A stretch of 22,590 bases of DNA, from positions 1-22,590 of IMG/VR virus record IMGVR_UViG_3300046463_000866; one strand, given 5' to 3'. The position numbers were made by a program, and so were the translations under genes. This DNA comes from a virus. Below the pieces are notes generated by a model, which had not been told where the DNA came from, did no database searches, and worked only from the letters and a program-made list of their open reading frames with translations. Shown one piece after another: positions 1,568-19,105 of the stretch; positions within the stretch are counted from its first letter, which is position 1; each line of letters starts with the position of its first letter.

Positions 1568-3472
1568 ATGCCAAATGCATTTGCTGAGCTGTCTCCCTCA
1601 GGGGACAAGATCGAGGTCCACTTCAAGTATGACAAGGATCTCGTCACACTCATCAAAGAGGTACCAGGCGCACGGTTTGTTCCGGTCACCAACGGTGGTC
1701 CCATGTGGACCGTCCCGCTGAACCTGGACATCGCGCGGCGTCTGAACGAGAACATGGGACCGGGTCTCGTCCTCGGACGCGCATTGCGTGTCTGGGGCAA
1801 GGAGGCTCGGAAGCGTGAGAAGAACCTCCATGCTCTGGCAAGCATTGATTCGGTTGAGCCTGAAGCTCTTGCCCTCAAGGACAAGATCCCAGGCATGGCC
1901 GAATGGATGCGCGGCTACCAGCGTGCAGATGTTCAGTTCCTGGCTGCTACGTCGGCGATCAACGCCAACGAGCCGGGGCTTGGTAAGACATCTGAGACCA
2001 TCGCTGCCATCTTCGAGGCAGGGCTTGAGAACGGCCAGCACCTTGTGGTCGCTCCTAAGACCTCACTCGAGACTGTTTGGCGGTCTGAGATCGAGCGCTG
2101 GACGGAGCACTGCGAGAAGCCGCATGAGGTCATCTGCTACAGCGGTGAACTCAGCACGGCTGCTCGTGAACATGCCATCGAGGAGTTCTGGGCATGCGTG
2201 GATGAAGACTGGCCTGTTTGGTTCGTCTGCACCCCGCAGACCTTGCTCGGTGGGCACGATCCCAACGTCGAGGAGTGGAACACCTTCACGATCGACGAGT
2301 TCCATAAGACAGGGTTGACGAACACGTCAGCCAAGAAGGGCACGGGCACGAAGTTCGGAGACGCCGTCAAGGAGATCAAGTCCAAGCGGCGTTACGCTCT
2401 CTCCGGGACACCGATGGGCGGCAAGCCCATCAAGCTCTGGGGAGCGCTGCACTTCCTGTATCCGGAGCAGTTCACGTCCAAGTGGCAATGGGCCAAGACG
2501 TGGCTGGATGTCTCCAGCAATGGGTATGGGCAGGACATCGGCGGTGTTCTCAGAGGTCGTGAGGATGAGTTCTACAAGGCTCTGTCTCCGTACCTAGTGC
2601 GGCGGCTGAAGTCTGAAGTGCTCACCCAGCTGCCTCCGAAGCAGTTCGTCGATGTCTGGTGCGACATGACGCCGAAGCAGAAGAAGCAGTACGACGACTT
2701 CGCTGCCAAGGCGGAAGCTGAGATCGAGGGCATGAAGCTCAACGCTCTCGGCATTCTCGCAGAGTACACTCGGCTGAAGGTCTTCGCAGATGCTTACTGC
2801 GAGGAGATGGTCGAGAAGATGGTTGACTGCGGCATGTGCAAGGGCACAGGCGATGTTGAGGGTGTAACCTGCCCTCGTTGTCTGGGCTCTGGTAAGCGCA
2901 AGCAGCAGCACCCCATCCCGAGCAACGAGTCGGGCAAGCTGCAATACCTGCTTGAGCGGCTGAACGAGAACGGCATCGACCCTGACGATCCTTCAGGCGA
3001 CAGTTGTGCTGTGGTGGCCAGTCAGTTCAAGCTGGTGGCCGACATGGTTCACGCCTATCTGAACGCCAAGGGCATCTATGCCGAGAAGATCACAGGCGAC
3101 ACATCCGGTAAGGAACGCGCTCGCATTCAGGAGCAGTTCCAGAAGGGTGGTGTCGGCTCACCCCGCGTTGTGGTGATGACTACCACAGCCGGTGGTGTGG
3201 CAATCACTCTTGACCGGGCAGATACCTGCCACATCCTGGACGAGACATGGGTCCCGGACGATCAAGAGCAGTTGGCCGATCGTATTCACCGCGCATCGCG
3301 GATGCACCAGGTCACGGTGTACTCCTACCGTTGCAAGGACACGATCGAGGAGGACATCCACGCTCTGGTGCAGGACAAGGCCCAGATCAACCGGGCAATC
3401 TTGGATATCAGGCGGCAGGGCTTCCGCGCCGACCACAAGCCTCAGGTTGTAACCGAAGAGGTTGCAGCATGA
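1568..3472 (+). CDS. SNF2-family DNA helicase/translocase with zinc-finger insert
   Basis: The 634-aa product has the motifs of superfamily 2 SNF2-type ATPases in order: RGYQRADVQF near 115, Walker A EPGLGKT (135-141), motif II DEFH (243-246), motif III SGTP (279-282), a C-terminal RecA lobe with TTTAGGVAITL (538-548) and motif VI DRIHRASR (571-578). The N-terminal ~110 residues resemble the non-catalytic segment seen in SMARCAL1-like and phage SNF2 proteins. Between the lobes lie two CxxCxGxG-like repeats (C421, C424, C435, C438), as in DnaJ zinc fingers. It probably remodels replication or recombination forks or moves along DNA. GGAAGG 1555-1560 precedes ATG 1568. Its stop overlaps the next start as ATGA. 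Confidence 0.9.
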   Translation: MPNAFAELSPSGDKIEVHFKYDKDLVTLIKEVPGARFVPVTNGGPMWTVPLNLDIARRLNENMGPGLVLGRALRVWGKEARKREKNLHALASIDSVEPEALALKDKIPGMAEWMRGYQRADVQFLAATSAINANEPGLGKTSETIAAIFEAGLENGQHLVVAPKTSLETVWRSEIERWTEHCEKPHEVICYSGELSTAAREHAIEEFWACVDEDWPVWFVCTPQTLLGGHDPNVEEWNTFTIDEFHKTGLTNTSAKKGTGTKFGDAVKEIKSKRRYALSGTPMGGKPIKLWGALHFLYPEQFTSKWQWAKTWLDVSSNGYGQDIGGVLRGREDEFYKALSPYLVRRLKSEVLTQLPPKQFVDVWCDMTPKQKKQYDDFAAKAEAEIEGMKLNALGILAEYTRLKVFADAYCEEMVEKMVDCGMCKGTGDVEGVTCPRCLGSGKRKQQHPIPSNESGKLQYLLERLNENGIDPDDPSGDSCAVVASQFKLVADMVHAYLNAKGIYAEKITGDTSGKERARIQEQFQKGGVGSPRVVVMTTTAGGVAITLDRADTCHILDETWVPDDQEQLADRIHRASRMHQVTVYSYRCKDTIEEDIHALVQDKAQINRAILDIRRQGFRADHKPQVVTEEVAA

Positions 3473-5200: not shown

Positions 5201-6340
5201 ATGCCGGGAAGGCAAAGTGCGAAGCAACGGCAGGTTGGTCGGGAGAGCTCAGCCCGTAGGGGTCCTAGTAGCCGCAATGCGGTGAACGGCAGTGCCCCGG
5301 CCAATCTGCCGATGCTCCGTACCTCAGAGCGCGGGACCATGAAGCGTTGTGAGTTCCTATGGGACATCACGTACAACCAGAACCTGAAGTCCGGTGAGGA
5401 TCGCCCGGCTCTACGCTTCGGTACGCTCGTGCACAAAGCACTGGCAGCGTACTACATTCCCGGCGTGAAGCGGGGAGCACACCCCGCAAAAGCCTTCACT
5501 CGTGCCTACAAGGCAGATCTGCGCAAGAACCAGAGCAAGTTCGGTGCGCGGATGGAAGAGGACGACAAGTGGGTAGACGCGCTAGAGCTCGGCGTCGCCA
5601 TGATGGAGAATTACGTCGACGAGTACGGAGAAGACGACAAGTGGGAGGTTCTCGTCACCGAGCACCCCTTCAAAGTTCTCGTGCATCACACCATTGATAG
5701 ATGGAGCCTCGATGGCACCCAAACAACTGCTCTTGCGGGTGAGCCGTGGTTCTGGTATACCGGCGTTCTGGACGGTGTGTGGCGTAACCGCAGCTCAAAG
5801 GAGCTCTGGATCCCCGACCACAAGAGCGCTGCCTCTCTGAGCGATAGCAAACTCGCATATCTGCAGATGGATGACCAGGCCGGTGCATACTGGTCGTTCG
5901 GAGTTGAGTACCTGTACGCGTCGGGAATCCTGAAGCCAGAGCAGAAGCTGGCCGGTATGCTCTACAACTTCATGCGGAAAGCCCTGCCCGATGAGAGGCA
6001 GTCCCGCGTCGAGAAGGGTAAGCGCATCTACCTCAACTTGGACGGCAGCGACAGCAAGAAGCAACCATCGCCCTACTTCATGCGCATGCCCATCTTCCGC
6101 GACGAGCCAGACCGCGAGATGGCCAAGCACCGGGCGATGGCGGACTTCCGCCGCACGGAGATGTTGCGTAGCGGCGAGCTCGAGATCGGCAAGAGTCCGG
6201 GGCAGTTCACCTGTCCTGGTTGCCCAGCAAGGGATATTTGCGAACTGCACGAGGTAGGTGCTGACTGGGCGACGTTCCGTGACCAGACCACCTACACCTG
6301 GGAACCATACGCTGAGCATGAGGTGTACGATGGTCGTTGA
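5201..6340 (+). CDS. Cas4/RecB-like PD-(D/E)XK nuclease with predicted Fe-S cluster
   Basis: The 379-aa product has the RecB-family nuclease pattern: RFGTLVHKAL (72-81, histidine H78), E154, GVLDG (188-192, D191), PDHKSA (205-210, D206 and K208) and LQMDDQAGAY (221-230, Gln and Tyr). Four cysteines are placed as in Cas4 and AddB: C50 before the nuclease core and C338, C341, C347 at the end (CPGCPARDIC), which normally hold a 4Fe-4S cluster. Phage relatives act as DNA exonucleases in recombination or end processing. The first ~45 residues are basic and probably disordered. AGGGAGG precedes ATG 5201. The stop codon is the first base pair partner region of the structured element that follows. 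Confidence 0.85.
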   Translation: MPGRQSAKQRQVGRESSARRGPSSRNAVNGSAPANLPMLRTSERGTMKRCEFLWDITYNQNLKSGEDRPALRFGTLVHKALAAYYIPGVKRGAHPAKAFTRAYKADLRKNQSKFGARMEEDDKWVDALELGVAMMENYVDEYGEDDKWEVLVTEHPFKVLVHHTIDRWSLDGTQTTALAGEPWFWYTGVLDGVWRNRSSKELWIPDHKSAASLSDSKLAYLQMDDQAGAYWSFGVEYLYASGILKPEQKLAGMLYNFMRKALPDERQSRVEKGKRIYLNLDGSDSKKQPSPYFMRMPIFRDEPDREMAKHRAMADFRRTEMLRSGELEIGKSPGQFTCPGCPARDICELHEVGADWATFRDQTTYTWEPYAEHEVYDGR

Positions 6341-7103: not shown

Positions 7104-7248
7104 GCTCGCAGCAGCAATCAGAAAGCTGGAGCACTCGGCAGAGGGCGAGGGCTTCTCTGCCTCAGTCACACCGGCGGAATGCCAGATCCTCCTGTCGTAC
7201 ATCAACACACTGAACGAATACATCGAGGGGCTCACGCATGGCGGGTAG
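7093..7248 (+). CDS. Hypothetical protein, 51 aa
   Basis: This short frame runs from ATG 7093 to TAG 7246-7248. It overlaps the end of the zinc-ribbon gene and the start of the Sak4-like gene by 11 bases each. GGAAGGGTAGG at 7078-7086 serves as ribosome binding site. The product is mostly helical (PELAAAIRKLEHSA, then TPAECQILLSYINTLNEYI) with one cysteine and no transmembrane segment. Without it there would be a 134-base gap in an otherwise packed operon, which supports it being real. No family is recognised. Confidence 0.65.
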   Translation: MQPELAAAIRKLEHSAEGEGFSASVTPAECQILLSYINTLNEYIEGLTHGG

Positions 7249-8122
7249 AGGCGCAAAGCTGCAAGCGGTACCTGCCGCGATGCAGAGCGATCCCACAGAC
7301 GGATCGCCGCAGATCAGCCCTGTTGATCGTCTTGACTGGGTGCGCTGCGTCATCCACTCATTCCCTGGTTGGGGAAAGACCTCTCTAATCGGCAGCGGCG
7401 CGGAGGCAGGGATCAAGACCCTGATCATTCGCTCGCCGATGGACCTGATCCCTTCCCGCGTACTCCAGGCCAGCCAGCACCACCCAGGCATGATTGACCA
7501 GGTGGTAGCCAGTACCTGGGAGGACATGGGCAAGGTCCTGGAGCATCTACGGATGAGCAACCACGGATACAACTGGGTGTGGTGGGACAACATCTCAGTC
7601 GCCCAGGACGTTCTGCTGGACGACATCTGGGAGGCCACCACTCTGCTTCGTCCTGATCGTCTAGCTCTCACACCGAAGGGTGGGCTGGACAAGGGCGAGT
7701 ATGGTCGCAACATGGAGCGCATTCAACAATGGGTGCGGCACATGGTAGGCTGCAACACATTCCACTTCGGCATCATGGCCCACCCGTTCGAGGGCAATCA
7801 CCCCACGAACGACGAAGGTGGTACGCTTCTGCGCCCATACGTGCAGGGTAAGCAGATGACGGAGAAGATCTGCGGCTACGCAAACCTAGTCGGCTTCCTG
7901 GAGTTGATGGAGAACGATGAGGGTGTGCAGTGGCGGCGGTTGCACGTGAAGGAGTCTCCTCGTTGGTATGCGAAGGATCAGTACGATGCCTTCCCCAAGG
8001 GCTATGTCGACAATCCGACCGTCGGTAAGCTCATGGCAGCCATTGAGGAAAGCAAGAAGTCCGGCCGCGCCAATGCGGCATCTACGACCACCCGGCGTGG
8101 CCGGGGAAGAAGGGGGCAATAA
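7238..8122 (+). CDS. Sak4-like RecA-fold ATPase (phage recombinase type)
   Basis: The 294-aa product has Walker A FPGWGKTSL (42-50) and a Walker B-like YNWVWWDNIS with D117, in the compact RecA-core layout of phage Sak4/AAA_24 proteins. These are RecA-like ATPases, several of which promote single-strand annealing together with an SSB partner; the SSB-like gene follows immediately. The C-terminal ~25 residues are disordered and basic (TTTRRGRGRRGQ). ATG 7238 overlaps the 51-aa gene. An ATPase with a role in replisome assembly rather than recombination cannot be excluded. Confidence 0.75.
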   Translation: MAGRGAKLQAVPAAMQSDPTDGSPQISPVDRLDWVRCVIHSFPGWGKTSLIGSGAEAGIKTLIIRSPMDLIPSRVLQASQHHPGMIDQVVASTWEDMGKVLEHLRMSNHGYNWVWWDNISVAQDVLLDDIWEATTLLRPDRLALTPKGGLDKGEYGRNMERIQQWVRHMVGCNTFHFGIMAHPFEGNHPTNDEGGTLLRPYVQGKQMTEKICGYANLVGFLELMENDEGVQWRRLHVKESPRWYAKDQYDAFPKGYVDNPTVGKLMAAIEESKKSGRANAASTTTRRGRGRRGQ

Positions 8123-8123
8123 C

Positions 8124-9002
8124 TTGCCAACAATCCTCGATTACGACGTCACTGACGTCGAGGAGTCTGGTGGCGGCACTGGCGTCAAGGCAAAGCCTGG
8201 CGTCAAGGTTGCCAAGATCATGCAGGCGCAGCACCGCACCGAGAAGAACGACGGCAGTCCGGCCAACGACATCCGGCTTGCTCTCAACGTCGGTGCTGAT
8301 TTCGACTGGGTCTTCACCTACGTCGGTCTCAACGATGCCAGTGACTGGAAGCTGAAGCAGCTCATCCGGGCCATCGGCAAGAAGGACAAGGGGAAGCTCA
8401 ATCTCGAGAAGGACGTGGCGGGCAAGATCATCCGCGTCAAGCTCAACCCCGACAGCTACGAAGGAGAGCCCACGGTCAAGGAAGCGGGTCTGTTCCCACC
8501 GCAGCCGGGCGACTCCGAAGATGATCTGGGAGGCTCCGTCTCCGAGAGCAGCACAGCCAAGCCCGTCGGTCCTGATGAGGACGACGCGGCTGCAACGACC
8601 TCTGAGTACCCTGATGGGTACGATCCCGTCCGCGAGGACGAGAACGACGAGGAGGTCGGCAAGTACGAAGATTGGCCCGAAGAGGATCTGCTCGGTGAGG
8701 TCGAAGATCGTGGTCTCACGATGCCGGGTGGTCGCGGTGCCAAGAGCAAGAAGGCAATCGAGGCTCTGCGCGCCGATGACGAGGCCGCAGGCTCGCCTGC
8801 CGAAGCGGGCGGGGAAGCAACTGACGAGGCTCCTGAAGACGAGTACGACTCGTGGGATCTCGAGCAGTTGAAGCAGGAGTGGACCGATCGCCAGCTGGAT
8901 GATCTTCCGGCGATCAAGGGTCGCGGTGCTGCCGATCGCATGAAGGTTGCGATCATCGAGGGGCTCCGCCAAGACGACGTCGAGAACCCCTTCACTCCCT
9001 AA
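8124..9002 (+). CDS. SSB-like protein with two SAP-like helical repeats
   Basis: TTG 8124 is chosen because GAAGAAGGGGGC lies just upstream and it directly follows the TAA of the Sak4-like gene; earlier in-frame ATGs lie deep inside that gene. Residues 1-125 resemble the DUF669/SSB-like OB-fold proteins of phages (DYDVTDVEESGG, KVAKIMQAQHR, WKLKQLIRAIGK, GKIIRVKLN). A strongly acidic linker (about 130-180) follows, then two related helical units, 181-218 (WPEEDLLGEVEDRGLTMPGG) and 241-285 (WDLEQLKQEWTDRQLDDLPA), similar to SAP/Rho-N-like DNA-binding modules. The last residues DDVENPFTP recall the acidic tip by which bacterial SSB recruits partners. Single-strand DNA binding is inferred. Confidence 0.65.
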   Translation: MPTILDYDVTDVEESGGGTGVKAKPGVKVAKIMQAQHRTEKNDGSPANDIRLALNVGADFDWVFTYVGLNDASDWKLKQLIRAIGKKDKGKLNLEKDVAGKIIRVKLNPDSYEGEPTVKEAGLFPPQPGDSEDDLGGSVSESSTAKPVGPDEDDAAATTSEYPDGYDPVREDENDEEVGKYEDWPEEDLLGEVEDRGLTMPGGRGAKSKKAIEALRADDEAAGSPAEAGGEATDEAPEDEYDSWDLEQLKQEWTDRQLDDLPAIKGRGAADRMKVAIIEGLRQDDVENPFTP

Positions 9003-9302: not shown

Positions 9303-12146
9303 GTGGCTCTCACGCGTCGTCAATTCGATCTCCTTGCGCCCTATCTCGAGGGCGACCACCCCACACACCAGAATGTGGATCGTGATACAGGCGAGGTAAC
9401 TCGTGAGTGGAATCTGGTTTGTCCTCTACATCAAGACAACAAGAGGTCGGCCAGCATCAATATCGACAAGGGCGTGTTCTTCTGCAATGTATGCGGAGGC
9501 ATGCCTATCGTCAGGCTCATGGGCAAGAAGGCAGAGTGGCAGCCAGCGCCAACGCTCAATGGTAACCACCACCGCCCTGACCCAGATGCACCCGCGCCAA
9601 CCTCCAAACAGCGTACTCTCACCGAGGGGCACATCAAGGGATGGCACAGCGCACTGCTGAGTAACGCAGGAGCTATGCGTTGGCTTGATGAAGTGAGAGG
9701 TTTGAGTCAGCAGACCATTGAGAAGTATGAGATCGGCTACGACTCAGGACGCATCTACACCATTCCCGTGCGCGGACCAGAGAACGAGATCTGGAACGTC
9801 AGGTTCTATGATCCCAGCCCTGGCGCTGTGCGCCGCAAGATCTGGTCTGAGTCAGGCTACGGATCTCCCAATCGTCTGTACCCTATCTCCGTGTTTGACC
9901 TAGACCCGTCTGAGATCGTCATCGGAGAAGGTGAGTGGGACATTCTGCTGCTGCTACAGAACGGCATTCCTGCCGTAACACGCACCGGCGCTGCAGATGT
10001 CTGGCTCGCCGAGTGGGGCAGCTTCTTCAAGGACCGCACCGTGTACCTCTGCAACGACCGCGACGACAAGGGCTCAAAGGCTGACCGCGTGATCGCTAGA
10101 TCACTGCGCCACGTAGCAGATGTGCGCGTGATTGAGCTGCCCTATCCGCGCGAGAAGAAACACGGCAAGGATGTGACTGACTTTCTCCTGGAACACTACC
10201 CATCTGACTTCCGCGAACTGATGAGCAAGGCTCGTCCGGCTAACAAACGGCGCGGAGCAGGCTCGGGCACTAAGTCAAAGCAGGAACTCGCGACAGTGCT
10301 AGATACGTTTGACGCTCACAACGTCGGCACGCCGCTGACTACGATCGTCACGATCAAGGGTCGTAAGGAACCGGGTTACACAATCCCCAAGGTCGTACAG
10401 ATGGCCTGCACGCAGGACGCCGGGAACAAGTGTGCGATCTGCCCGATGCGCGCAGCTAACGGCGAGGCAACGCTTGAGATCAATGCGGACGACCCGCTGG
10501 TTCTCAGCATGATTGACTACACCACGCCGCAGATGAAGGCAACGCTGGCCGGAGCCTATGGTGTCCCAGGCGGTAAGTGCCCAAAGCTGATGCAGGACAT
10601 CACGGAGTACCAGTCAGTTGAGATCCTGTTCGGGCGTCCGGCGTTGGACTACTCAGACGGTAGCATCGTCGACCCCAAGAAAGCCGCCACGTACAAGAAC
10701 ATCAAGATCACATCGGTAGGGAGGCACGACACGGCGAGCAACAACACGGTACAGATCACCGGAGCGTTGCAGCCAAACCCAAGGACTCAGGGAAACGAGT
10801 TCTTGGTGAGTGAGTTGGAAGGGATGGAGACTTCGGTTGATCGCTTCGAACTCACGGATCAGTCCATCGCTCTCATGAAGCGGTTCCAGGGCAATGGTAG
10901 ACCTCTGCACAAGGTAGCAGAGATCAACCGTGCGCTCTCGGAGCACATCACTAGGGTGCACGGACGCCCTGAGATGCACGCTGTGATGGACTTGACTTAC
11001 CACTCCGTGATCAGTTTCAACTTTGCCGGGGAGTACATCCACCGTGGATGGCTGGAGAGCCTCATATTGGGAGACACACGAACCGGCAAATCTCAAGCAG
11101 CACAACGCATGATGTCTCACTACGGTGCGGGCGAGATGATCTCCTGTGAGGCAGCCTCCTTCGCGGGTGTAGTGGGAGGTCTGCAGACGATCGGGCAGAA
11201 GGACTGGGTTGTTACCTGGGGAGTCATCCCTCTCAATGACCGTCGTCTGGTAGTCCTGGACGAGATCAGCGGTCTGACCCCAGAAGAGATTGCACAGATG
11301 AGCGACATCCGTTCATCAGGGCAAGCCAAGCTGGTCAAGATCCAGCAGGAGACAACCTGGGCTCGTACGCGTCTGCTGTGGCTGGCTAACCCCCGCAACG
11401 CTACCATGGCCAACTACACCTACGGGGTGGATGCCATCAAGCCTCTCATCGGCAACGCTGAGGACATCGCCAGGTTCGACCTGGCTATGGTAGTCACGCT
11501 GTTCGACGTAGCCAGTGAGACAATCAATCAGCCAGCCGTAGGAGGAGAGCTACTGTACACCGCCGAGGCCTGCCACACGCTGCTCATGTGGGTCTGGACG
11601 CGCGGAGCCAACAACATCATCTGGGCTACTGGCGCAGAGGACCGCGTGTTCTACCAGGCCAACGAGATGGGTAAGCTGTATGTGGAGGATCCTCCGCTGA
11701 TTCAGGCAGCCAACGTCCGCATCAAGCTGTGTCGTTTGGCCATCGCGATAGCTGCCCGCACGTTCAGCACGGACGACAGCTACGAGAATATCGTGGTGCA
11801 CCCCTACCATGTAGATGCTGCCGTACAGATGATCAATCTCCTGTACGGTATGCCGTCCTTCGGGTACCGCGAGCGCAGCCGCGAGAGGCTTGCTGATCGC
11901 TATGCTGCCGAGGACGCACGTGATGAGATGAGCCAGTACCTGAAGGGTCGTCCCATCTTGGCGAAGTACCTACGCAGCGCCGGTAAGTTCCGCCGCCAGG
12001 ATCTGGACGAGATCATGAACATCTCAAGAGAGGAGAGCAACGCAATCATCTCCACCCTGTATGAACACAGGATGGTGCGCAAGGTACTAGGCGACATTGT
12101 CGTCGAGCCAACGCTGCACTCACTACTGAGGGAGCTCAAATGGTAA
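9303..12146 (+). CDS. Primase-helicase fusion: CHC2 zinc finger, TOPRIM, MCM-type AAA+
   Basis: GTG 9303 is the first start after the preceding stop and gives 947 aa. The N-terminus has a CHC2 primase zinc finger (C40, H43, C61, C64). A TOPRIM domain follows, with IVIGEGEWD (205-213, E209) and CNDRDDKG (250-257, D252, D254). The middle region has four cysteines (C369, C377, C380, C426) and an OB-like stretch. The C-terminal half is an AAA+ ATPase of MCM type: Walker A GDTRTGKS (590-597), SFAGVVGGLQ (619-628), Walker B VVLDE (650-654), sensor-1 ANPR (695-698) and IARFDLAMVV (722-731), matching the MCM arginine finger SRFDL. A winged helix is likely at the end. It should prime and unwind DNA at the fork. 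The stop overlaps the next ATG by 7 bases. Confidence 0.85.
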   Translation: MALTRRQFDLLAPYLEGDHPTHQNVDRDTGEVTREWNLVCPLHQDNKRSASINIDKGVFFCNVCGGMPIVRLMGKKAEWQPAPTLNGNHHRPDPDAPAPTSKQRTLTEGHIKGWHSALLSNAGAMRWLDEVRGLSQQTIEKYEIGYDSGRIYTIPVRGPENEIWNVRFYDPSPGAVRRKIWSESGYGSPNRLYPISVFDLDPSEIVIGEGEWDILLLLQNGIPAVTRTGAADVWLAEWGSFFKDRTVYLCNDRDDKGSKADRVIARSLRHVADVRVIELPYPREKKHGKDVTDFLLEHYPSDFRELMSKARPANKRRGAGSGTKSKQELATVLDTFDAHNVGTPLTTIVTIKGRKEPGYTIPKVVQMACTQDAGNKCAICPMRAANGEATLEINADDPLVLSMIDYTTPQMKATLAGAYGVPGGKCPKLMQDITEYQSVEILFGRPALDYSDGSIVDPKKAATYKNIKITSVGRHDTASNNTVQITGALQPNPRTQGNEFLVSELEGMETSVDRFELTDQSIALMKRFQGNGRPLHKVAEINRALSEHITRVHGRPEMHAVMDLTYHSVISFNFAGEYIHRGWLESLILGDTRTGKSQAAQRMMSHYGAGEMISCEAASFAGVVGGLQTIGQKDWVVTWGVIPLNDRRLVVLDEISGLTPEEIAQMSDIRSSGQAKLVKIQQETTWARTRLLWLANPRNATMANYTYGVDAIKPLIGNAEDIARFDLAMVVTLFDVASETINQPAVGGELLYTAEACHTLLMWVWTRGANNIIWATGAEDRVFYQANEMGKLYVEDPPLIQAANVRIKLCRLAIAIAARTFSTDDSYENIVVHPYHVDAAVQMINLLYGMPSFGYRERSRERLADRYAAEDARDEMSQYLKGRPILAKYLRSAGKFRRQDLDEIMNISREESNAIISTLYEHRMVRKVLGDIVVEPTLHSLLRELKW

Positions 12147-12913
12147 AGGACATCATGATCCTGGGGTGCGGGCCGTCAGGACTACTGTGTGCGTGGGCTA
12201 TGGAGAGCCAGGGTCACAGCGTCTCCATTCTCTCGCGCAAGGAGAAGTCCGTGATTCCGGGCAGCCAGCACTTGCACGGGCCGGTGCCCGGTCTGACCTC
12301 GCCCTACCCGGAGGGCACCATTCAGTTCGTCCGCATGGGCAATGCCCAGGACTACGCGGAGAAGGTGTACGGAGATCGCCGTCGTCTGACGGGCTGGGAG
12401 AACTACTTCCAGGTGTATCCGTCCTGGAATGTGCTCAGAGCATACGACCTACTCTGGGACCGCTACGAGAGCAGGATCATCGAGGGTGAGATCAACCACG
12501 ACGTTGTGATGTCCTGCAAGTTCCACAGCGACTTGGTCATCAGCACCGTCCCGGCGCAGGTACTGTGCTACAACAACTGCGCATTCAACTCTGTGCCGTA
12601 CTACATGAAGCAGCTGCCCACTCCGCCAGCAGACCAGAACAACGAGGTCGTGGTGTACAACGGCTTGCCGGAAGACCACTGGTACCGTTGGAGCATCCTG
12701 GGAGGGTTGTGCAGCATTGAGACAACTGCTCCCAGTTGGTCAGAGAACGTAGACGACGGCTGGGTGCAGGGCTGGAAGGCAGTCAGTAACCGCTGCACGT
12801 GTCACCCGGATGTAGTACGCTGTGGACGCTGGGCGGAGTGGACGCATGGGGTCACCATGTATAACGCATACCAAAAGGCATACTCACTAGCAAGGGAGCT
12901 AGCAAATGAGTGA
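12140..12913 (+). CDS. FAD/NAD(P)-binding oxidoreductase-like protein, 257 aa
   Basis: Residues 6-32 form a Rossmann dinucleotide-binding motif (MILGCGPSGLLCAWAMESQG: G9, G11, G14). The C-terminus GRWAEWTHGVTMYNAYQKA (about 231-249) resembles the end of amine-oxidase or UDP-galactopyranose-mutase-type flavoproteins, where Gly-Arg contacts FAD and a helix follows. At 257 residues it is much shorter than typical members (about 370-450), so a domain is missing or reduced. HLHGPVPGL (44-52) also recalls mutase-like proteins. The substrate is unknown. It lies between the helicase and polymerase genes, in a single operon, which is an odd place for a metabolic enzyme. Confidence 0.65.
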   Translation: MVKDIMILGCGPSGLLCAWAMESQGHSVSILSRKEKSVIPGSQHLHGPVPGLTSPYPEGTIQFVRMGNAQDYAEKVYGDRRRLTGWENYFQVYPSWNVLRAYDLLWDRYESRIIEGEINHDVVMSCKFHSDLVISTVPAQVLCYNNCAFNSVPYYMKQLPTPPADQNNEVVVYNGLPEDHWYRWSILGGLCSIETTAPSWSENVDDGWVQGWKAVSNRCTCHPDVVRCGRWAEWTHGVTMYNAYQKAYSLARELANE

Positions 12914-13229: not shown

Positions 13230-13447
13230 GTCACCTGCCGGACCAGCCGCATGAGGTGCCCTTCCGTGAGGTGGAGCACGACATCGTCGATCTGGAGTTC
13301 CCAGACCTGTTCTGGCCACGCCACATCGGTATCTATCGTCAGGCTGAGTACCACATGACCGAAGAGGAGCTCAAGGAGTGGGAGGACGACATGCGCCGCA
13401 AGGATCAGGCGCGAGCGAAGCTAGGAGGCTTCGGGTTCCGTGGCTGA
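13226..13447 (+). CDS. Hypothetical protein, 73 aa
   Basis: GTG 13226 overlaps the previous TGA (GTGA), and the product ends just inside the DnaE-like gene (GTG 13440). The sequence starts with an acidic, Pro-containing segment (FREVEHDIVDLEFPDLFWPR), then a helix rich in Glu and Lys (TEEELKEWEDDMRRKDQARA). No cysteine motif or membrane segment is present, and no family is recognised. It contains AGGAGG 13423-13428 that serves the next gene. Confidence 0.6.
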   Translation: MSHLPDQPHEVPFREVEHDIVDLEFPDLFWPRHIGIYRQAEYHMTEEELKEWEDDMRRKDQARAKLGGFGFRG

Positions 13448-16400
13448 GAAGCTGAAGGGTCCTGGGCTGCTGAGCAGTGCGAGCTCTGGTGGCGGTGAGT
13501 GGCGCACAGGTACGCCTGAGGAGCGCATCGACACCAAGTTCGTAGATGTCAAGATCCCGGTACACCGTCACGGTGACCACACGACCCCTGTCGTCGTGCG
13601 CAAGGTCAACAGGACCCGGCGTGTTCCGCAACGCACCAAGGAGATGACCTTTGCAAGCACTCACCATCACACTACGTTTTCGTACGGAGACGGTTATGCC
13701 CTACCCGAAGCACACATTCGCCGTGCTGAAGAGATCGGTCTTTCCGCCATGGCCGCAACCGAGCACGGGAATGTATCATCACACGTACAGCTTGAAGTTG
13801 CTGCCAAGAAGTCAGGCGTCAAGCCTCTGTATGGAGTTGAGCTGTATACGGGCGAGCTCGGGGAGAACGCCACACAGCGAAAGAACCATCTCACTATCCT
13901 GGCTGAGAACGAAACTGGGTATGGCAACCTTCTACAGCTAGTCACGAAGACATTCGCGGAGGGCTTCTACTACGAGCCCACTGCCGACGGCAAGATGCTC
14001 GCAGCGCACAAGGAAGGGCTGGTTGTTCTGTCTGGCTGTCAGGGCAGCGCGCTCTTCACCACCCTGGTAGGAGGCAAGCATGTCGCGGAAGAAGACGCCA
14101 GTTACTCTAGAGCCAAAAGGCTCGCCTCTCAATTCAAGAGGACGTTCGGCGATTCTTACTACATCGAGATCCAGGCATTCCCTGAGTTGGTCAAGACGAG
14201 GCAGGCGAATCCGTTACTGGTGGCGATGGCTGAGGAACTTGCGATACCGTACGTCGTAACCTTCGACTGCCACTACACGGTGCCTGAGGAGAAGGAGATG
14301 CAGAAGATCCTGCACAACCTTCGTCCCGGCGAGAAGCGATCAATTGAGGATATGGCCCGTGAGTGGGGATACGACAGCAACCTCTGCCCGCCATGGAGTG
14401 ATAGCATGGTGGTGCGTAAGCTCATAGCTACGGGACTCAGCAAGCAACAGTCCATCAACGCGGTGCTTGCTTCGCGGGACATCGCGGATCGCTGCACAGT
14501 TGACTTGCCTTCTCTACCGATGGTGCGCTACCCGCTCCCGCCCGGATACACTTCCGCCCTTGATCTCTGGAGGGACTGGCTGAGTAAGGGGTGGCACGAG
14601 CGCGGCTGTGAATCGCTGCCTCCCAAGGTGCGCAGGGAGTATCTGCAGCGTCTCAACTACGAGATGCGCATCATAGAGGAGAAGGATTTCGTTGATTACT
14701 TCCTGGTCGTCGCCGACGCACTCCAGTTTGCGAAGAATGAAGACATCGGGGTTGGGCCTGCACGCGGCAGTTCCGCTGGATCTCTCGCCTGTTGGTTGCT
14801 ACGCATCACCGAAGTCAATCCGATGCTCTACCCCGAGGATCTCATCTTTGAGCGTTTCATTGATATTACTCGTCAGGACCTACCGGATATTGACGTCGAT
14901 TTCAATTCGGAAAGACGAGGAGAGGTCTACGACTATCTCGTAACCAAGTACGGTGCTGAGTGCGTCGGCAACGTCGGCACCTTCACAAAGTACAAGGGCA
15001 AGAACTCTCTGGATGCAGCGGCACGAGTCTTCGGTGTGCCCAAGTGGGAAGTTGATTCAATCAAGGATGTCCTGATCGAGAGGAGCTCAGGTGACCTACG
15101 CGCAAGTGCGACGATTGAGGATACTGCTGAGCAATTTCCCCAAGCACGTGAGGTGTTCGAGCGACACCCGGACCTTGGCGCAGCGCTTGACCTTGAGGGT
15201 AACTACGCAGGATTCGGAGTCCACAGCGCTGGTCTCGTTGTATCGACCGGGCCCATTACCCAGGTCGCAGCCACCTATCAGCGTGTGGTTAAGAAAGAGA
15301 TCCGCCAGGTCATCTCCATGGACAAGTACGATGCCGAGAAGAAGGGACTCCTGAAGCTGGACTTCCTCGGTCTGAGCAACATGACCGCGATCGACGGCAT
15401 GCGCAAGGAGATGGGGTGGTCGCTTGATGATCTGTACAACGTGGACGTTCATGACCCCGTTCTTATCGAGGGGTTCAACAAGAACGACGTCATCGGTATC
15501 TTCCAGTTCGAAGGGCCAGCCTGCCGCTATGTGAACGGCGCTCTGCAGCCTGACAACTTCAAGCAGGTGTACGACGTCACCGCTTTGGGTCGTCCTGGGC
15601 CGTTGCACAATGGTGCGGCCAATGCCTACATCGACATCAAGCACGGGCGCGAGGAGTACGTCAGCATGCACCCGGCCATGGGGGCAATCTGCGACGCCAC
15701 CTACGGACAGGTTGTCTACCAGGAGCAGATCCTGCGCATCCTCGGCGAGATCGGCGGCTTCGATCACACGCACCGTGCTGAGGTGCGCCGCATCATCTCG
15801 CGCAAGATCGGGGAGCAGGAGTTCAACCGCCGGTGGGGCAGGTTCCGCGACGGAGCGAAAGAACTGCACGATATGGAAGAGGAGATTGCGCGCAGGATCT
15901 GGATGACCTGTATCACAGCAGGCTCCTACGCTTTTAACGCAGCGCACGCGGTCAGCTACGCTATGATCGCTTCGCACGCGATGTACTTCAAGCGTTACCA
16001 CCCGGAGCTCTTCTACAAATACTCGCTCAACATCAGTAATGATGACCGGCAGCGTACCTTGCTCCGAGATACGCAACGCAAGGGTCGGCACATCAAAATC
16101 TTGCCGCCACATCCTCTGCACAGCGGTGTTAATTGGGAGAAGGAGGGAGACGCGCTGGTTGCTGGCTTCTCACAGGTACCGAACATTGGTCTCAACATCG
16201 GGGCGGACATCGTCAAGTACAGGGATAGTCTGCCCGAACTGGACGAGAGTTTTGACTGGGAGCGGTTGCTTGAGGTTCCCGGTATCGGTCCCAGGAAGAT
16301 GGAGCAGATCAGAGAGTTCTCCAACAAGGGTGATGATCCCTTCGGAGCGCTGTGGCTTGATCGCTCCATTGAGATCACCAAGGCCGAACTGAAGTCAGGC

Positions 16401-16817
16401 AAGCTGATGGCTCCGATGCCGACACACGTCGCAGAGGATCTGCCCTACGAGAAGGGCGACGACATTGAGGTCGTGTGGCTGGGAACAATCACTAGCCGCA
16501 ACGAACGAGACCTCTTTGAGTTCAACCAGGCGAAGGGTGCGGAGCTCGACATGAGCGATCCCAAGCACCCGAAGCTCAACGGAGAGCTCATCAAGGATCC
16601 ACATCTGGATAAGTGGGTGGTGATGGTTGGTCATGATGAGTCAGACCAGATCGGGCTCAGGGTTGACCGCTGGCGCTATCCCCGCTTGCGGGAGAAGGTG
16701 TGGCGCATCAGACCGGGCAAGGACCTCATCCTCGTTCGGGGAGTAAAGCCAGGGTGGATGCCCACAAGGCAGCTCACCATCAGCGAGATCTGGATCATTG
16801 ATCCGGACGCAGCATGA
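13440..16817 (+). CDS. dnaE: DNA polymerase III alpha subunit (DnaE-like)
   Basis: The 1125-aa product is a C-family replicative polymerase. After an extra ~70-residue basic N-terminus, the PHP domain begins at HHHTTFSYGDG (75-85) and continues through ATEHGN (106-111), GVELY (132-136), H150, C200 and FDCHY (275-279). Most metal ligands of an active PHP exonuclease appear present, suggesting built-in proofreading. The polymerase core has ARGSSAGSL (441-449), PDIDVDF (482-488, catalytic D483 and D485) and LKLDFLGLSN (638-647, D641). Finger motifs GRPGPLHNG and TYGQVVYQEQ and a helix-hairpin-helix VPGIGPRKM (946-954) follow. AGGAGG lies 11 bases before GTG 13440. No sliding clamp or clamp loader is visible in this window. 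Confidence 0.93.
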   Translation: MAEKLKGPGLLSSASSGGGEWRTGTPEERIDTKFVDVKIPVHRHGDHTTPVVVRKVNRTRRVPQRTKEMTFASTHHHTTFSYGDGYALPEAHIRRAEEIGLSAMAATEHGNVSSHVQLEVAAKKSGVKPLYGVELYTGELGENATQRKNHLTILAENETGYGNLLQLVTKTFAEGFYYEPTADGKMLAAHKEGLVVLSGCQGSALFTTLVGGKHVAEEDASYSRAKRLASQFKRTFGDSYYIEIQAFPELVKTRQANPLLVAMAEELAIPYVVTFDCHYTVPEEKEMQKILHNLRPGEKRSIEDMAREWGYDSNLCPPWSDSMVVRKLIATGLSKQQSINAVLASRDIADRCTVDLPSLPMVRYPLPPGYTSALDLWRDWLSKGWHERGCESLPPKVRREYLQRLNYEMRIIEEKDFVDYFLVVADALQFAKNEDIGVGPARGSSAGSLACWLLRITEVNPMLYPEDLIFERFIDITRQDLPDIDVDFNSERRGEVYDYLVTKYGAECVGNVGTFTKYKGKNSLDAAARVFGVPKWEVDSIKDVLIERSSGDLRASATIEDTAEQFPQAREVFERHPDLGAALDLEGNYAGFGVHSAGLVVSTGPITQVAATYQRVVKKEIRQVISMDKYDAEKKGLLKLDFLGLSNMTAIDGMRKEMGWSLDDLYNVDVHDPVLIEGFNKNDVIGIFQFEGPACRYVNGALQPDNFKQVYDVTALGRPGPLHNGAANAYIDIKHGREEYVSMHPAMGAICDATYGQVVYQEQILRILGEIGGFDHTHRAEVRRIISRKIGEQEFNRRWGRFRDGAKELHDMEEEIARRIWMTCITAGSYAFNAAHAVSYAMIASHAMYFKRYHPELFYKYSLNISNDDRQRTLLRDTQRKGRHIKILPPHPLHSGVNWEKEGDALVAGFSQVPNIGLNIGADIVKYRDSLPELDESFDWERLLEVPGIGPRKMEQIREFSNKGDDPFGALWLDRSIEITKAELKSGKLMAPMPTHVAEDLPYEKGDDIEVVWLGTITSRNERDLFEFNQAKGAELDMSDPKHPKLNGELIKDPHLDKWVVMVGHDESDQIGLRVDRWRYPRLREKVWRIRPGKDLILVRGVKPGWMPTRQLTISEIWIIDPDAA

Positions 16818-17198: not shown

Positions 17199-17708
17199 AT
17201 GCGCAAGACGATCGTCATCCTGTTTGCAGTCTTCGCCCTGGGAGCGGCGACGGACGCAAGCGCCAAACTGATGGTGACCAGGCAGTGTGGGACGTTGTCC
17301 TGCATCAACAGTCGCCAGCTACAGAACCTGAAGCACGCACGGTACGTCTGCAACTATGGACGTCACCAAACGCGAAGATGGAACTGCGCAGCAGTCAAAT
17401 GGCTCAAGCGCGAGTACGAACAAACCCAGGCGGTGCTGCACCCAGTGGTGCCGTCGGATCTAAGCGCATGGTTGTGCATTCATCGCTACGAAGGTGCCTG
17501 GACAAGCAACACGGGCAATGGTTACTACGGTGGGCTACAGATGGACTCAGGGTTCATGGCTCGCTATGGTTCCGACTTCGAAGCAAGATGGGGTACAGCC
17601 GACAACTGGCCAAGCTGGGCTCAGCTAACAGCAGCCAGGCGTGCACGTGACAGCGGTCGCGGATACGGTCCGTGGCCGAACACCGCCCGTTTCTGCGGGC
17701 TATTGTAA
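17199..17708 (+). CDS. Secreted Rpf-like transglycosylase-domain protein
   Basis: The 169-aa product starts with a signal peptide (MRKTIVILFAVFALG, likely cut after ASA at about residue 22). The mature N-terminus has four cysteines and basic residues. Residues about 86-169 match the transglycosylase-like domain of actinobacterial resuscitation-promoting factors: WLCIHRYEGAW with probable catalytic E98, NTGNGYYGGLQMDSGF (104-119), an Ala-rich helix and GRGYGPWPNTARFCG (153-167). It should cut peptidoglycan outside the membrane. GAAAGGATC precedes ATG 17199. Its place among replication genes rather than a lysis cassette makes the role (lysis, entry, or reviving dormant host cells) open. Confidence 0.85.
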   Translation: MRKTIVILFAVFALGAATDASAKLMVTRQCGTLSCINSRQLQNLKHARYVCNYGRHQTRRWNCAAVKWLKREYEQTQAVLHPVVPSDLSAWLCIHRYEGAWTSNTGNGYYGGLQMDSGFMARYGSDFEARWGTADNWPSWAQLTAARRARDSGRGYGPWPNTARFCGLL

Positions 17709-17717
17709 GGGAGCAAC

Positions 17718-18113
17718 ATGCTGACCAAAGGACAGATCGCACAGGCGATTGCGGACGACACGGGGCTCGGTAAGAACCTCGTGATGAACGTCCTCAGTTC
17801 CCTGGCAGCTGTCGCCTCGGATGAGGTTGGAGCCGGCAACGACTTCACAGTCCCAGGCGTCGCTCGCATCTCGTGGGCCTACCGTGTCGCCAAGAAGAAG
17901 GGCGAGCGGTGGAAGAAGGGCGAGTCGGTGCAGGGATTCGGTGGAGTCACCGAAGTGAAGACGGAAGACAGTCCTCCCATCGCGGCCAAGGCTCGTCTCA
18001 CGGCGCGGCCGACAGGAGGAGTCTCCCATCACAAGCCGAAGTCAGACCCGCAGGCTCAGAAGGACTTCCTGAAGAGCAGCGCGGGCAAGGCTGTCGCAAG
18101 CAGGAAGAAGTAG
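17718..18113 (+). CDS. HU-like DNA-binding protein with basic tail
   Basis: AAGGGAG 17707-17713 precedes ATG 17718. Residues 1-70 follow the HU/IHF fold: two helices (TKGQIAQAIADDTGL and VMNVLSSLAAVASDEV), then GNDFTVPGVARISW as in the HU beta arm entry. The arm region (RVAKKKGERWKKGE) is Lys-rich. The C-terminal ~45 residues are basic and disordered (KSSAGKAVASRKK), similar in style to actinobacterial HupB tails. It probably bends or compacts phage DNA, or serves at the origin. It is followed by thyX with a five-base gap. Confidence 0.8.
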   Translation: MLTKGQIAQAIADDTGLGKNLVMNVLSSLAAVASDEVGAGNDFTVPGVARISWAYRVAKKKGERWKKGESVQGFGGVTEVKTEDSPPIAAKARLTARPTGGVSHHKPKSDPQAQKDFLKSSAGKAVASRKK

Positions 18114-18118
18114 GGATC

Positions 18119-19105
18119 ATGGGCGACGACATTGTCAAGTACAGCGATGCGGCGATGTACGACGCCCAGCCGATCCTCGGCGCGGAGGAGGGCGTGCGGC
18201 TTCGGCCGCGCGTCTTCCTCCTCAACGCCACGCCGGATCCGCTGGGAACGTGCGCTGCCGACATGCGCATGTACCGGGGTGATCCCGTCTACAGCTTGGA
18301 CGAGATCACAGACGAACAGCGTCGCTGGGCCTGGGAAGAGCTCAGCAAGACAATTCTCAACACACCGCTGGAGGGCGTCAGCCTCAAGTTCATGATCGAG
18401 GCGGTCACACGTTCCTTCACGCACCAGATGGTGCGGCAGCGCGTGGGTGCGTACTACGTGCAGGAGAGCCTGCGCTTCGCAGTCAAGCGTGGTCTGGCTC
18501 AGGAGGTCGCCCTGCCGCCCAGCATCGTACAGACAGATGAGGGTGTGGGCAAGATCTGGCACGATACGATCGCCACGATTGAGACTGCCTACCAGCAGCT
18601 GGTAGATGCCGGGGTACCGGCGGAAGACGCACGAGGTCTGCTGCCGCACGCGGTCACAACTCGCATCATCTACCACACCAACCTGCGCGGTCTCTTCAAT
18701 GAGGCAGGCAAGCGTCTCTGTACGCAGGCGCAGTTCGAGTGGCGCCACGTCTTCCTCGAGATCATGAAGGCAATCCGCGGCTATTGCTCCAATGCTTTCG
18801 CCGCGCAACACCGCCGTGACGACTGGCAGTGGCAACTCATCGGTACGCCTGCGCCGACGACGTTCACACCCGTCTGCTACCACACCGGCTCCTGTCAGTT
18901 CATGAGCATGCTTGATCGGGGCTGCACGATCCGTGACCGCGTACAGGCATTTGCGGCTTCCGGCGTTCCGTCATCGCAGTGGCATCAGGGTCACGGATTC
19001 GGAGACAAGGATGTCATTGCAAATGCTATCGACTCTATCCAGCCGGAAGAGTGGATGGCGGATCCGACGGCTGGGGTCACGACGGAGACCAACCGACCAG
19101 AATGA
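18119..19105 (+). CDS. thyX: Flavin-dependent thymidylate synthase ThyX, extended
   Basis: ThyX makes dTMP from dUMP using methylene-tetrahydrofolate, FAD and NADPH. The start ATG 18119 is preceded by TAGGGATC. The dUMP/FAD-binding signature reads RQRVGAYYVQESLRF (106-120), a variant of the usual RHR-x7-S pattern, with His replaced by Gln and one extra residue. Later motifs are typical: RGLLPHAVTTRI (152-163), HTNLRGLF (166-173) and QAQFEWRH (183-190). At 328 residues it is about 80-110 longer than most ThyX. The extra C-terminal part holds C243, C249 and C259 (CYHTGSC, DRGC), a possible metal site. The stop overlaps the next ATG (ATGA). Confidence 0.88.
   Translation: MGDDIVKYSDAAMYDAQPILGAEEGVRLRPRVFLLNATPDPLGTCAADMRMYRGDPVYSLDEITDEQRRWAWEELSKTILNTPLEGVSLKFMIEAVTRSFTHQMVRQRVGAYYVQESLRFAVKRGLAQEVALPPSIVQTDEGVGKIWHDTIATIETAYQQLVDAGVPAEDARGLLPHAVTTRIIYHTNLRGLFNEAGKRLCTQAQFEWRHVFLEIMKAIRGYCSNAFAAQHRRDDWQWQLIGTPAPTTFTPVCYHTGSCQFMSMLDRGCTIRDRVQAFAASGVPSSQWHQGHGFGDKDVIANAIDSIQPEEWMADPTAGVTTETNRPE

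Follow-up and report, generated by a model that had tools for sequence, protein, structure and literature searches.

Motors of the MCM family are usually presented as archaeal and eukaryotic, and TOPRIM primases as partners of DnaB. The phage T7 gp4 protein and Twinkle carry a TOPRIM primase ahead of a ring helicase whose motor is a RecA-fold DnaB, and bacterial DnaG has its zinc finger and catalytic core on a polypeptide that is not fused to a helicase. Phages and plasmids are known to encode fusions of an MCM helicase to a primase of the archaeo-eukaryotic type (AEP; PMC5862659), and an earlier sequence-only reading of the DNA studied here was right that known primase-MCM fusions are usually of this kind. 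The window, by which we mean the whole 22,590-base stretch analysed (IMG/VR record IMGVR_UViG_3300046463_000866, a single record), encodes a protein that differs from all of these. Its gene (9303-12146, + strand, as are all features below) specifies 947 amino acids that comprise, from N- to C-terminus, a CHC2 zinc finger, a DnaG/T7-gp4-type TOPRIM core, an MCM-type zinc/OB (oligonucleotide/oligosaccharide-binding) domain, an MCM AAA+ motor and a winged helix. It shares its MCM part (zinc/OB, AAA+ and winged helix) with the AEP-MCM proteins, but its N-terminal primase is CHC2-TOPRIM; it resembles T7 gp4 and Twinkle in the primase, but its motor is an AAA+ MCM. The MCM motor appears to have been retained, and the primase part exchanged once, in a large phage family.

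The gene is one uninterrupted open reading frame (ORF) with a GTG start. A 61,038-base contig matches the window at 100% identity over 18,841 bases, a second contig at 99.994% over 15,434 bases and a third at 99.985% over 6,837 bases; the first two contain the whole fusion gene and the third carries residues 1-770 only. Because these three further contigs carry the primase/MCM junction, it is no assembly chimera. Pfam finds Zn_ribbon_DnaG at residues 34-65 (17.5 bits, cut-off 24.9), Toprim_2 at 206-295 (20.8 bits, cut-off 22.1) and MCM at 573-731 (23.1 bits, cut-off 23.3), and the same three families are all above their cut-offs in the relative from Weizmannia phage Youna2. The full-length AlphaFold model has a mean predicted local distance difference test (pLDDT) of 88.3 and a predicted template modelling score of 0.67.

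Because the MCM half fills the VIA-align list for the whole model, whose listed rows include neither DnaG nor DnaB, the primase half (residues 1-312) was modelled alone (pLDDT 94.1). Its catalytic core with the TOPRIM fold (residues 103-312, 9609-10238) aligns with Bacillus subtilis DnaG (5guj) with a Z score of 21.9 over 199 residues (root mean square deviation (rmsd) 2.2) and with T7 gp4 (5ikn) with a Z score of 19.3 over 186 residues (rmsd 2.6). All 35 Foldseek PDB rows for the primase half at E≤0.001 are DnaG, T7 gp4, T4 primase or Twinkle (Aquifex primase, E 3.3e-13), and a profile built from nine family members matches Aquifex DnaG (E 4.2e-18) and T7 gp4 (E 3e-8) in PDB. The only PADLOC match of the protein is to a DnaG-like TOPRIM model, on this half, and no AEP domain was found in it by Pfam at E≤10. 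These comparisons support a DnaG/T7-gp4-type primase half with a predicted role in primer synthesis. The CHC2-type zinc finger (residues 34-66, 9402-9500; C40, H43, C61 and C64) lies ahead of the core. Since everything from about residue 317 onward is MCM, the protein has no separate DnaB-binding domain, unlike DnaG.

Residue conservation was counted on relatives from fetched loci. These contained 243 family ORFs, 184 with a TOPRIM-type N-terminus, 48 with an AEP and 11 with neither, in a redundant set (some contigs were fetched repeatedly). Among the 11, seven start at the end of their locus, two (L168 and L161) are broken frames with TOPRIM in the preceding piece, and two (L156 and L228) have no primase in the locus. 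After removal of ORFs that had an incomplete MCM part or no primase label, 228 were left, including three MCM references from haloarchaea; thinning at 80% identity reduced these to 133, of which 106 are TOPRIM and 24 AEP types. The zinc ligands are well kept among the TOPRIM types (C40 in 94/100, H43 in 84/102 and C61 in 97/101), and the column of the fourth, C64, is badly aligned, with C in 34/101. We note that in the Arthrobacter phage Wollypog (L003) and Sparcetus (L007) proteins CPIC replaces CPLH and an N-H pair stands at the position of the window's fourth cysteine, which may mean that the CHC2 ligands are rearranged.

The window protein keeps E209, D213, D252, D254 and D290, which we take to be the T7/DnaG catalytic acids (E209 through D213 are encoded by 9927-9941). 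TOPRIM-site counts were made on 104 TOPRIM-type proteins, after removal of L149 and L154, which lack the site. D252 and E211 are present in all 104 and D254 in 102; E209 is conserved in 76 (18 have G and 10 have A) and D213 in 87 (the other 17 have K). On the tree the state of E209 changes at least five times and D213 changes to K once, and the GGExK reading is common to one clade (L006, L132, L137, L146, L160, L169 and others). Priming may therefore be altered or lost in the 28/104 members in which E209 is A or G. In addition, the MCM frame lacks a TOPRIM site at four family loci. L149 (4635-6821) and L154 (4563-6821) retain just a fragment of the primase core, and the fetched loci of L156 (3883-5715) and L228 (4731-6947) yielded no frame for either a TOPRIM or an AEP primase. 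As judged from these frames, primase loss is possible in all four. Such members would fit the idea that the TOPRIM half is a nuclease or DNA-binding module that has lost its primase function and that the MCM motor works alone. For the window protein this is improbable, since all five acids are retained, the TOPRIM does not stand alone in residues 103-312 but is part of a DnaG-type core accompanied by a CHC2 finger, and the match of the primase half to the TOPRIM of RNase M5 (Z 10.7) is far below that to DnaG.

The remainder of the protein is an MCM helicase. Residues 317-857 of the model align with residues 66-604 of SsoMCM, zinc/OB domain included (Z 30.6, 461 residues, rmsd 5.5); identities in the structural alignment rows listed are 12-19%. 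The N-terminal domain of this half (residues 330-512, 10290-10838; OB strands and a four-cysteine zinc site, placed by the SsoMCM alignment) has conserved cysteines C369 (104/106), C377 (105/105), C380 (104/104) and C426 (97/106); counts for the helicase half refer to the non-redundant TOPRIM-type set (n=106). The AAA+ motor with its lid (residues 530-858, 10890-11876) contains a Walker A motif, GDTRTGKS (590-597, 11070-11093; K596 in 106/106), a helix-2 insert hairpin (620-640, 11160-11222; model strands 625-630 and 634-639), a Walker B motif, LVVLDE (649-654, 11247-11264; E654 in 105/106), a pre-sensor-1 hairpin (674-686, 11322-11360; model strands 674-677 and 683-686; K679 in 99/106), the sensor 1 residue N696 (11388-11390; 106/106) and the arginine finger R724 in ARFDL (11472-11474; 106/106). 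The C-terminal winged helix (884-935, 11952-12107) is modelled with its helices and beta wing and aligns with the archaeal MCM C-terminus in hhalign. The best SsoMCM alignment begins at residue 66 of that protein (the helical A domain was given no search of its own), and in the model the primase may have taken the place of the MCM helical A domain. Archaeal and eukaryotic MCMs thus share with the window protein the OB/zinc tier, both AAA+ hairpins, the arginine finger and the winged helix, but differ in the beginning of the alignment and in the low identity.

Assignment of the motor could not be left to Pfam MCM (PF00493). This family is matched at E≤1 in 9/9 members of our alignment A1 (window included) and in 17/17 related records (15 above the cut-off), but it is also above the cut-off in 14/14 control genomes, E. 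coli included, and therefore does not on its own tell MCM from ComM-like proteins; the assignment instead draws on PDB profiles, structural comparison and profile-profile alignment. With the helicase-half profile, 60/60 PDB matches listed (the best 60 of 63 at E≤1) are MCM; 8q67 appears there as 'DNA helicase' and as an MCM in the structural alignment rows. All 50 Foldseek PDB matches listed for the full model are MCM or MCM-containing replisomes. Against the MCMs of 57 genome contigs (56 titled archaeal and one 'bacterium'), hhalign places residues 479-935 on 206-689 of 691, winged helix covered, with probability 97.9 and E 4.6e-13. An AAA+ motor from another hairpin-bearing family (ComM/magnesium chelatase, MoxR, D5, DUF927-type or BrxL) would accommodate the PF00493 matches in the controls, the Pfam score just under the cut-off and the NCBIfam scan described below, but it is very improbable: not only the motor but also the zinc/OB domain and the winged helix can be aligned with MCM, the profile has no match to the E. 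coli ComM protein YifB at E≤1e-3, BrxL (described with an MCM-family AAA+ in PMC12839542) is not matched by the window protein in PADLOC at E≤1, and no other AAA+ family is found in the Pfam scans of the window protein, the A1 members, Youna2 or BboS-125. Stray weak PDB matches are to a SecDF chain (E 1.4) and, on the P-loop, to two IMAP GTPases (E 0.08 and 0.12). In a viral structure library the best row is the unnamed protein I1TI69 (560 amino acids, E 1e-22), and TOPRIM, primase and helicase proteins make up most of the remaining rows that carry a name.

The sequence-only reading had named the order CHC2, TOPRIM, four-cysteine/OB region, MCM-type AAA+ and winged helix, and Pfam together with the structural and profile-profile alignments confirms it. 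The profile searches that it proposed for MCM, Toprim and CHC2 return all three families, each just or somewhat below its Pfam cut-off, its SRFDL-like arginine finger is the invariant R724, and its identification of the AAA+ domain as MCM agrees with the PDB profile matches, hhalign and the SsoMCM comparison. Both hairpins that it expected of a predicted MCM structure, helix-2 insert and pre-sensor-1, are present, and MCM prevails over the alternatives tested (YifB/ComM, BrxL and other AAA+ families in Pfam).

The closest AEP-bearing comparison is gp45 of Bacillus phage BboS-125, which matches residues 334-942 only, at 27.5% identity, and which begins with a primase of the archaeo-eukaryotic type (Pfam DNA_primase_S). 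The family phrog_18685 covers BboS-125 gp45 end to end and matches the window protein over residues 331-931 (E 1.7e-72). A scan seeded with AEP-type proteins recovered both AEP-MCM and TOPRIM-MCM relatives; matches to the TOPRIM-MCM ones begin only at about residue 345 of the AEP seed. In a tree of the MCM part of 90 proteins (78 TOPRIM and 12 AEP types) there is a single change of primase label, and a branch with a Shimodaira-Hasegawa-like approximate likelihood ratio (SH-aLRT) value of 97 sets the AEP types apart. One primase exchange separating the TOPRIM-MCM from the AEP-MCM proteins is thus well supported, and several independent exchanges find no support on these 90 rows.

Rooted trees were built after the long-branch rows L005, L237 and L073 were dropped, one with 41 of the 78 TOPRIM rows, the 12 AEP rows and 16 of the 57 genome-contig MCMs, and a second, of 51 rows, with 28 TOPRIM, 12 AEP and 11 archaeal-outgroup MCMs. 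The latter, rooted on the archaeal MCMs, groups the TOPRIM types in one clade (98/94), outside which the AEP types lie as three branches, and the AEP types are together in 0/200 bootstrap trees. The window protein very probably descends from a primase-MCM ancestor that it shares with AEP-MCM proteins such as that of BboS-125, and the simplest form of the exchange is replacement of the AEP by CHC2-TOPRIM. The outgroup branch of the rooted tree is long, and the approximately unbiased (AU) test does not reject the AEP types as one clade (p-AU 0.27), so AEP to TOPRIM is only the favoured direction of exchange.

Relatives are widespread among phages. GenBank phages gave 129 records with a match at E≤1e-3, and 47 of these cover at least 80% of the protein; the near-full-length rows listed are mostly from Microbacterium phages, with Arthrobacter, Bacillus and others, and in the Streptomyces and Gordonia rows listed only the primase half is matched. 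Krampus-type Microbacterium phages, Wollypog and the Bacillus BSTP phages have full-length or near-full-length relatives that are 29-34% identical, and the cultured hosts of some relatives are Microbacterium foliorum, Arthrobacter globiformis and Bacillus subtilis. In IMG/VR the A1 patterns matched 229 stretches; 201 of these encode relatives, and 80 relatives were retained. The same patterns gave 27 matches and no relatives in a genome scan, which is limited by those patterns, so prophage copies may exist. The contrast that the sequence-only reading drew with AEP-MCM fusions stands; the fusion is not unique, given the 47 GenBank records. The labels of TOPRIM-type relatives are mostly 'DNA primase' or 'DNA primase/helicase', with no 'MCM' among the rows listed, while MCM is named in the annotation of the AEP-type gene of BboS-125. 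The Youna2 gene (L249, 1954-4971), labelled 'DNA primase small subunit', was considered as an AEP type on the basis of that label and rejected because hidden Markov model and Pfam matches show it to be CHC2-TOPRIM; a primase swap within an otherwise identical Bacillus neighbourhood was therefore dropped. From its sequence the AEP name on this protein is misleading. Bacillus phage BSTP5 (H142) has the same label and is known to us from a tblastn row only.

The gene order in the window, with small ORFs interspersed, is SNF2 helicase, PD-(D/E)XK exonuclease, Sak4-like recombinase, the fusion, an FAD-type gene, DnaE, an HU-like gene and ThyX, and Sparcetus and Wollypog share the order helicase, exonuclease, RecA-like, fusion, oxidoreductase, DnaE. 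Individually, these are a SNF2-family helicase (1568-3472; Pfam SNF2-rel_dom, 103 bits), a PD-(D/E)XK exonuclease (5201-6340; PDDEXK_1, phrog_1218 exonuclease), a Sak4-like RecA-fold recombinase (7238-8122; phrog_124, AAA_24), an FAD/NAD-binding oxidoreductase-like gene that overlaps the end of the fusion (12140-12913; HI0933_like below cut-off, phrog_8720, homologues in 58/106 TOPRIM-type loci), a DnaE-type DNA polymerase III alpha with PHP, pol3 alpha and finger regions (13440-16817; Pfam DNA_pol3_alpha 220 bits, PHP 119 bits) and a flavin-dependent thymidylate synthase, ThyX (18110-19105; Pfam Thy1, 117 bits). The gene directly upstream of the fusion (8097-9002) has no Pfam match at E≤0.01, and a longer overlapping ORF (7968-9002) has no PHROG match. 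Homologues of its product were found by tblastn in 26/106 TOPRIM-type loci, and Bacillus phage BSTP12 has a similarly placed gene with the label 'putative SSB protein'; by position, our guess would be a single-strand-binding partner.

The window DnaE is likely the replicase partner of the fusion. Among 26 related records (22 TOPRIM and 4 AEP types), 13 carry DnaE and 11 PolA, none carries both and two carry neither. PolA is present in three of the four AEP-type records, as against DnaE in the window, and the fourth has neither polymerase. The replicase label changes at least three times on the tree (55 of the 90 rows are labelled), a pattern of replicase exchange within the family. DnaB_C was found in 0/26 related records, of which those from IMG/VR can be incomplete and seven are GenBank phage records searched whole (SV21 is marked partial); as a control, it was matched in 14/14 control genomes, in ten of them above the cut-off.

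On these results the protein is very probably a phage helicase-primase that is replicative and self-sufficient, and the host is probably an actinobacterium. The MCM half would form a ring around one strand and move 3' to 5', as other MCMs do and, differently from T7 gp4 and Twinkle, on the other strand, and the CHC2-TOPRIM half would make RNA primers the DnaG/T7-gp4 way for extension by the phage DnaE. Because the primase immediately precedes the MCM zinc/OB tier in the polypeptide, it would sit at the leading (N-tier) face of the ring and should therefore prime the excluded lagging strand. An accessory helicase-primase for recombination-dependent restart, with host DnaB and DnaG driving the main fork, would suit the exonuclease, Sak4-like recombinase and SNF2 helicase neighbours, and a review suggests a restart role for BcMCM, the AEP/MCM protein of a Bacillus cereus prophage (PMC4538821). 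That alternative is unlikely in view of the absence of DnaB_C from all 26 records and of the DnaE or PolA carried by 24 of them, which points to a full phage replisome.

Several observations weigh against a self-sufficient helicase-primase with this history. All three Pfam scores of the window protein are under the curated cut-offs, and its NCBIfam scan gives dnaG and PRK07078 matches that are both below cut-off and no MCM match. The changes at E209, the four loci without a TOPRIM site, the AU result and the two records without a replicase, all described above, count on the same side, host DnaB or DnaG may still serve the phage, and we found no biochemistry of any TOPRIM-MCM protein in the literature. 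For BcMCM, 3'-5' helicase activity is reported, and on priming a first study found none and a later one found primase and DNA polymerase activity (PMC4538821); BcMCM is probably a member of the AEP-MCM family discussed here.

In the accessible parts of the open-licence literature we found no earlier report of a TOPRIM-MCM fusion, and a prior mention may exist. PMC8424206, PMC3890496, PMC9862828, PMC5512222, PMC10061031 and PMC12593628 mention MCM or TOPRIM incidentally, PMC2147016 describes a phage whose AEP and DnaG primases are not fused but separate, and PMC7581432 describes SCCmec helicases; a search on the two names joined found a single paper, which concerns Mcm and Pol alpha-primase of eukaryotes. 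In the replisomes of yeast and human (PMC10501992), the catalytic subunit Pri1 of Pol alpha-primase lies on the MCM N-tier face, between the MCM zinc fingers and above the exit of the lagging-strand template. It is conceivable, at a little under an even chance in our judgement, that a phage swapped an AEP for a bacterial CHC2-TOPRIM primase in a single event and kept its N-tier place, giving a one-polypeptide counterpart of the complex of the Cdc45-MCM-GINS (CMG) helicase with Pol alpha-primase in which the primase is non-homologous. If so, position above the lagging-strand exit, and not the kind of primase, would decide lagging-strand priming in MCM replisomes. With TOPRIM primase and MCM joined in one protein across many phages, some with cultured hosts, the family offers a small system for two questions: does lagging-strand synthesis need more than a primase at the front of an MCM ring, and how does a polymerase of bacterial type operate behind a helicase that runs on the leading strand? 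The presence of AEP and TOPRIM types on one MCM part permits direct domain comparison, and genes currently labelled 'DNA primase' could be given a clearer name.

A few features of the window and its relatives deserve mention. A transglycosylase-like PF06737 match in the window (17199-17708; 26.8 bits, cut-off 27) belongs to a family presumably linked to actinobacterial cell-wall enzymes, and would fit an actinobacterial host. The window DnaE is a single ORF of 1125 amino acids, unlike that of Wollypog (L003, 14390-18266) and Sparcetus (L007, 16738-20235), where it is split over two ORFs, in Wollypog with an HNH endonuclease gene between them. In L168 (4020-7538) the TOPRIM-MCM gene is divided between two frames, separated by about 675 bases (5564 to 6240), which is either an insert (an intron, intein or other element) or a sequencing break. 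Finally, the 129,757-base contig IMGVR_UViG_3300046533_000294 (L047 and L051) carries two TOPRIM-MCM genes about 65 kb apart; either two phage genomes have been joined in it or the gene is truly present twice.

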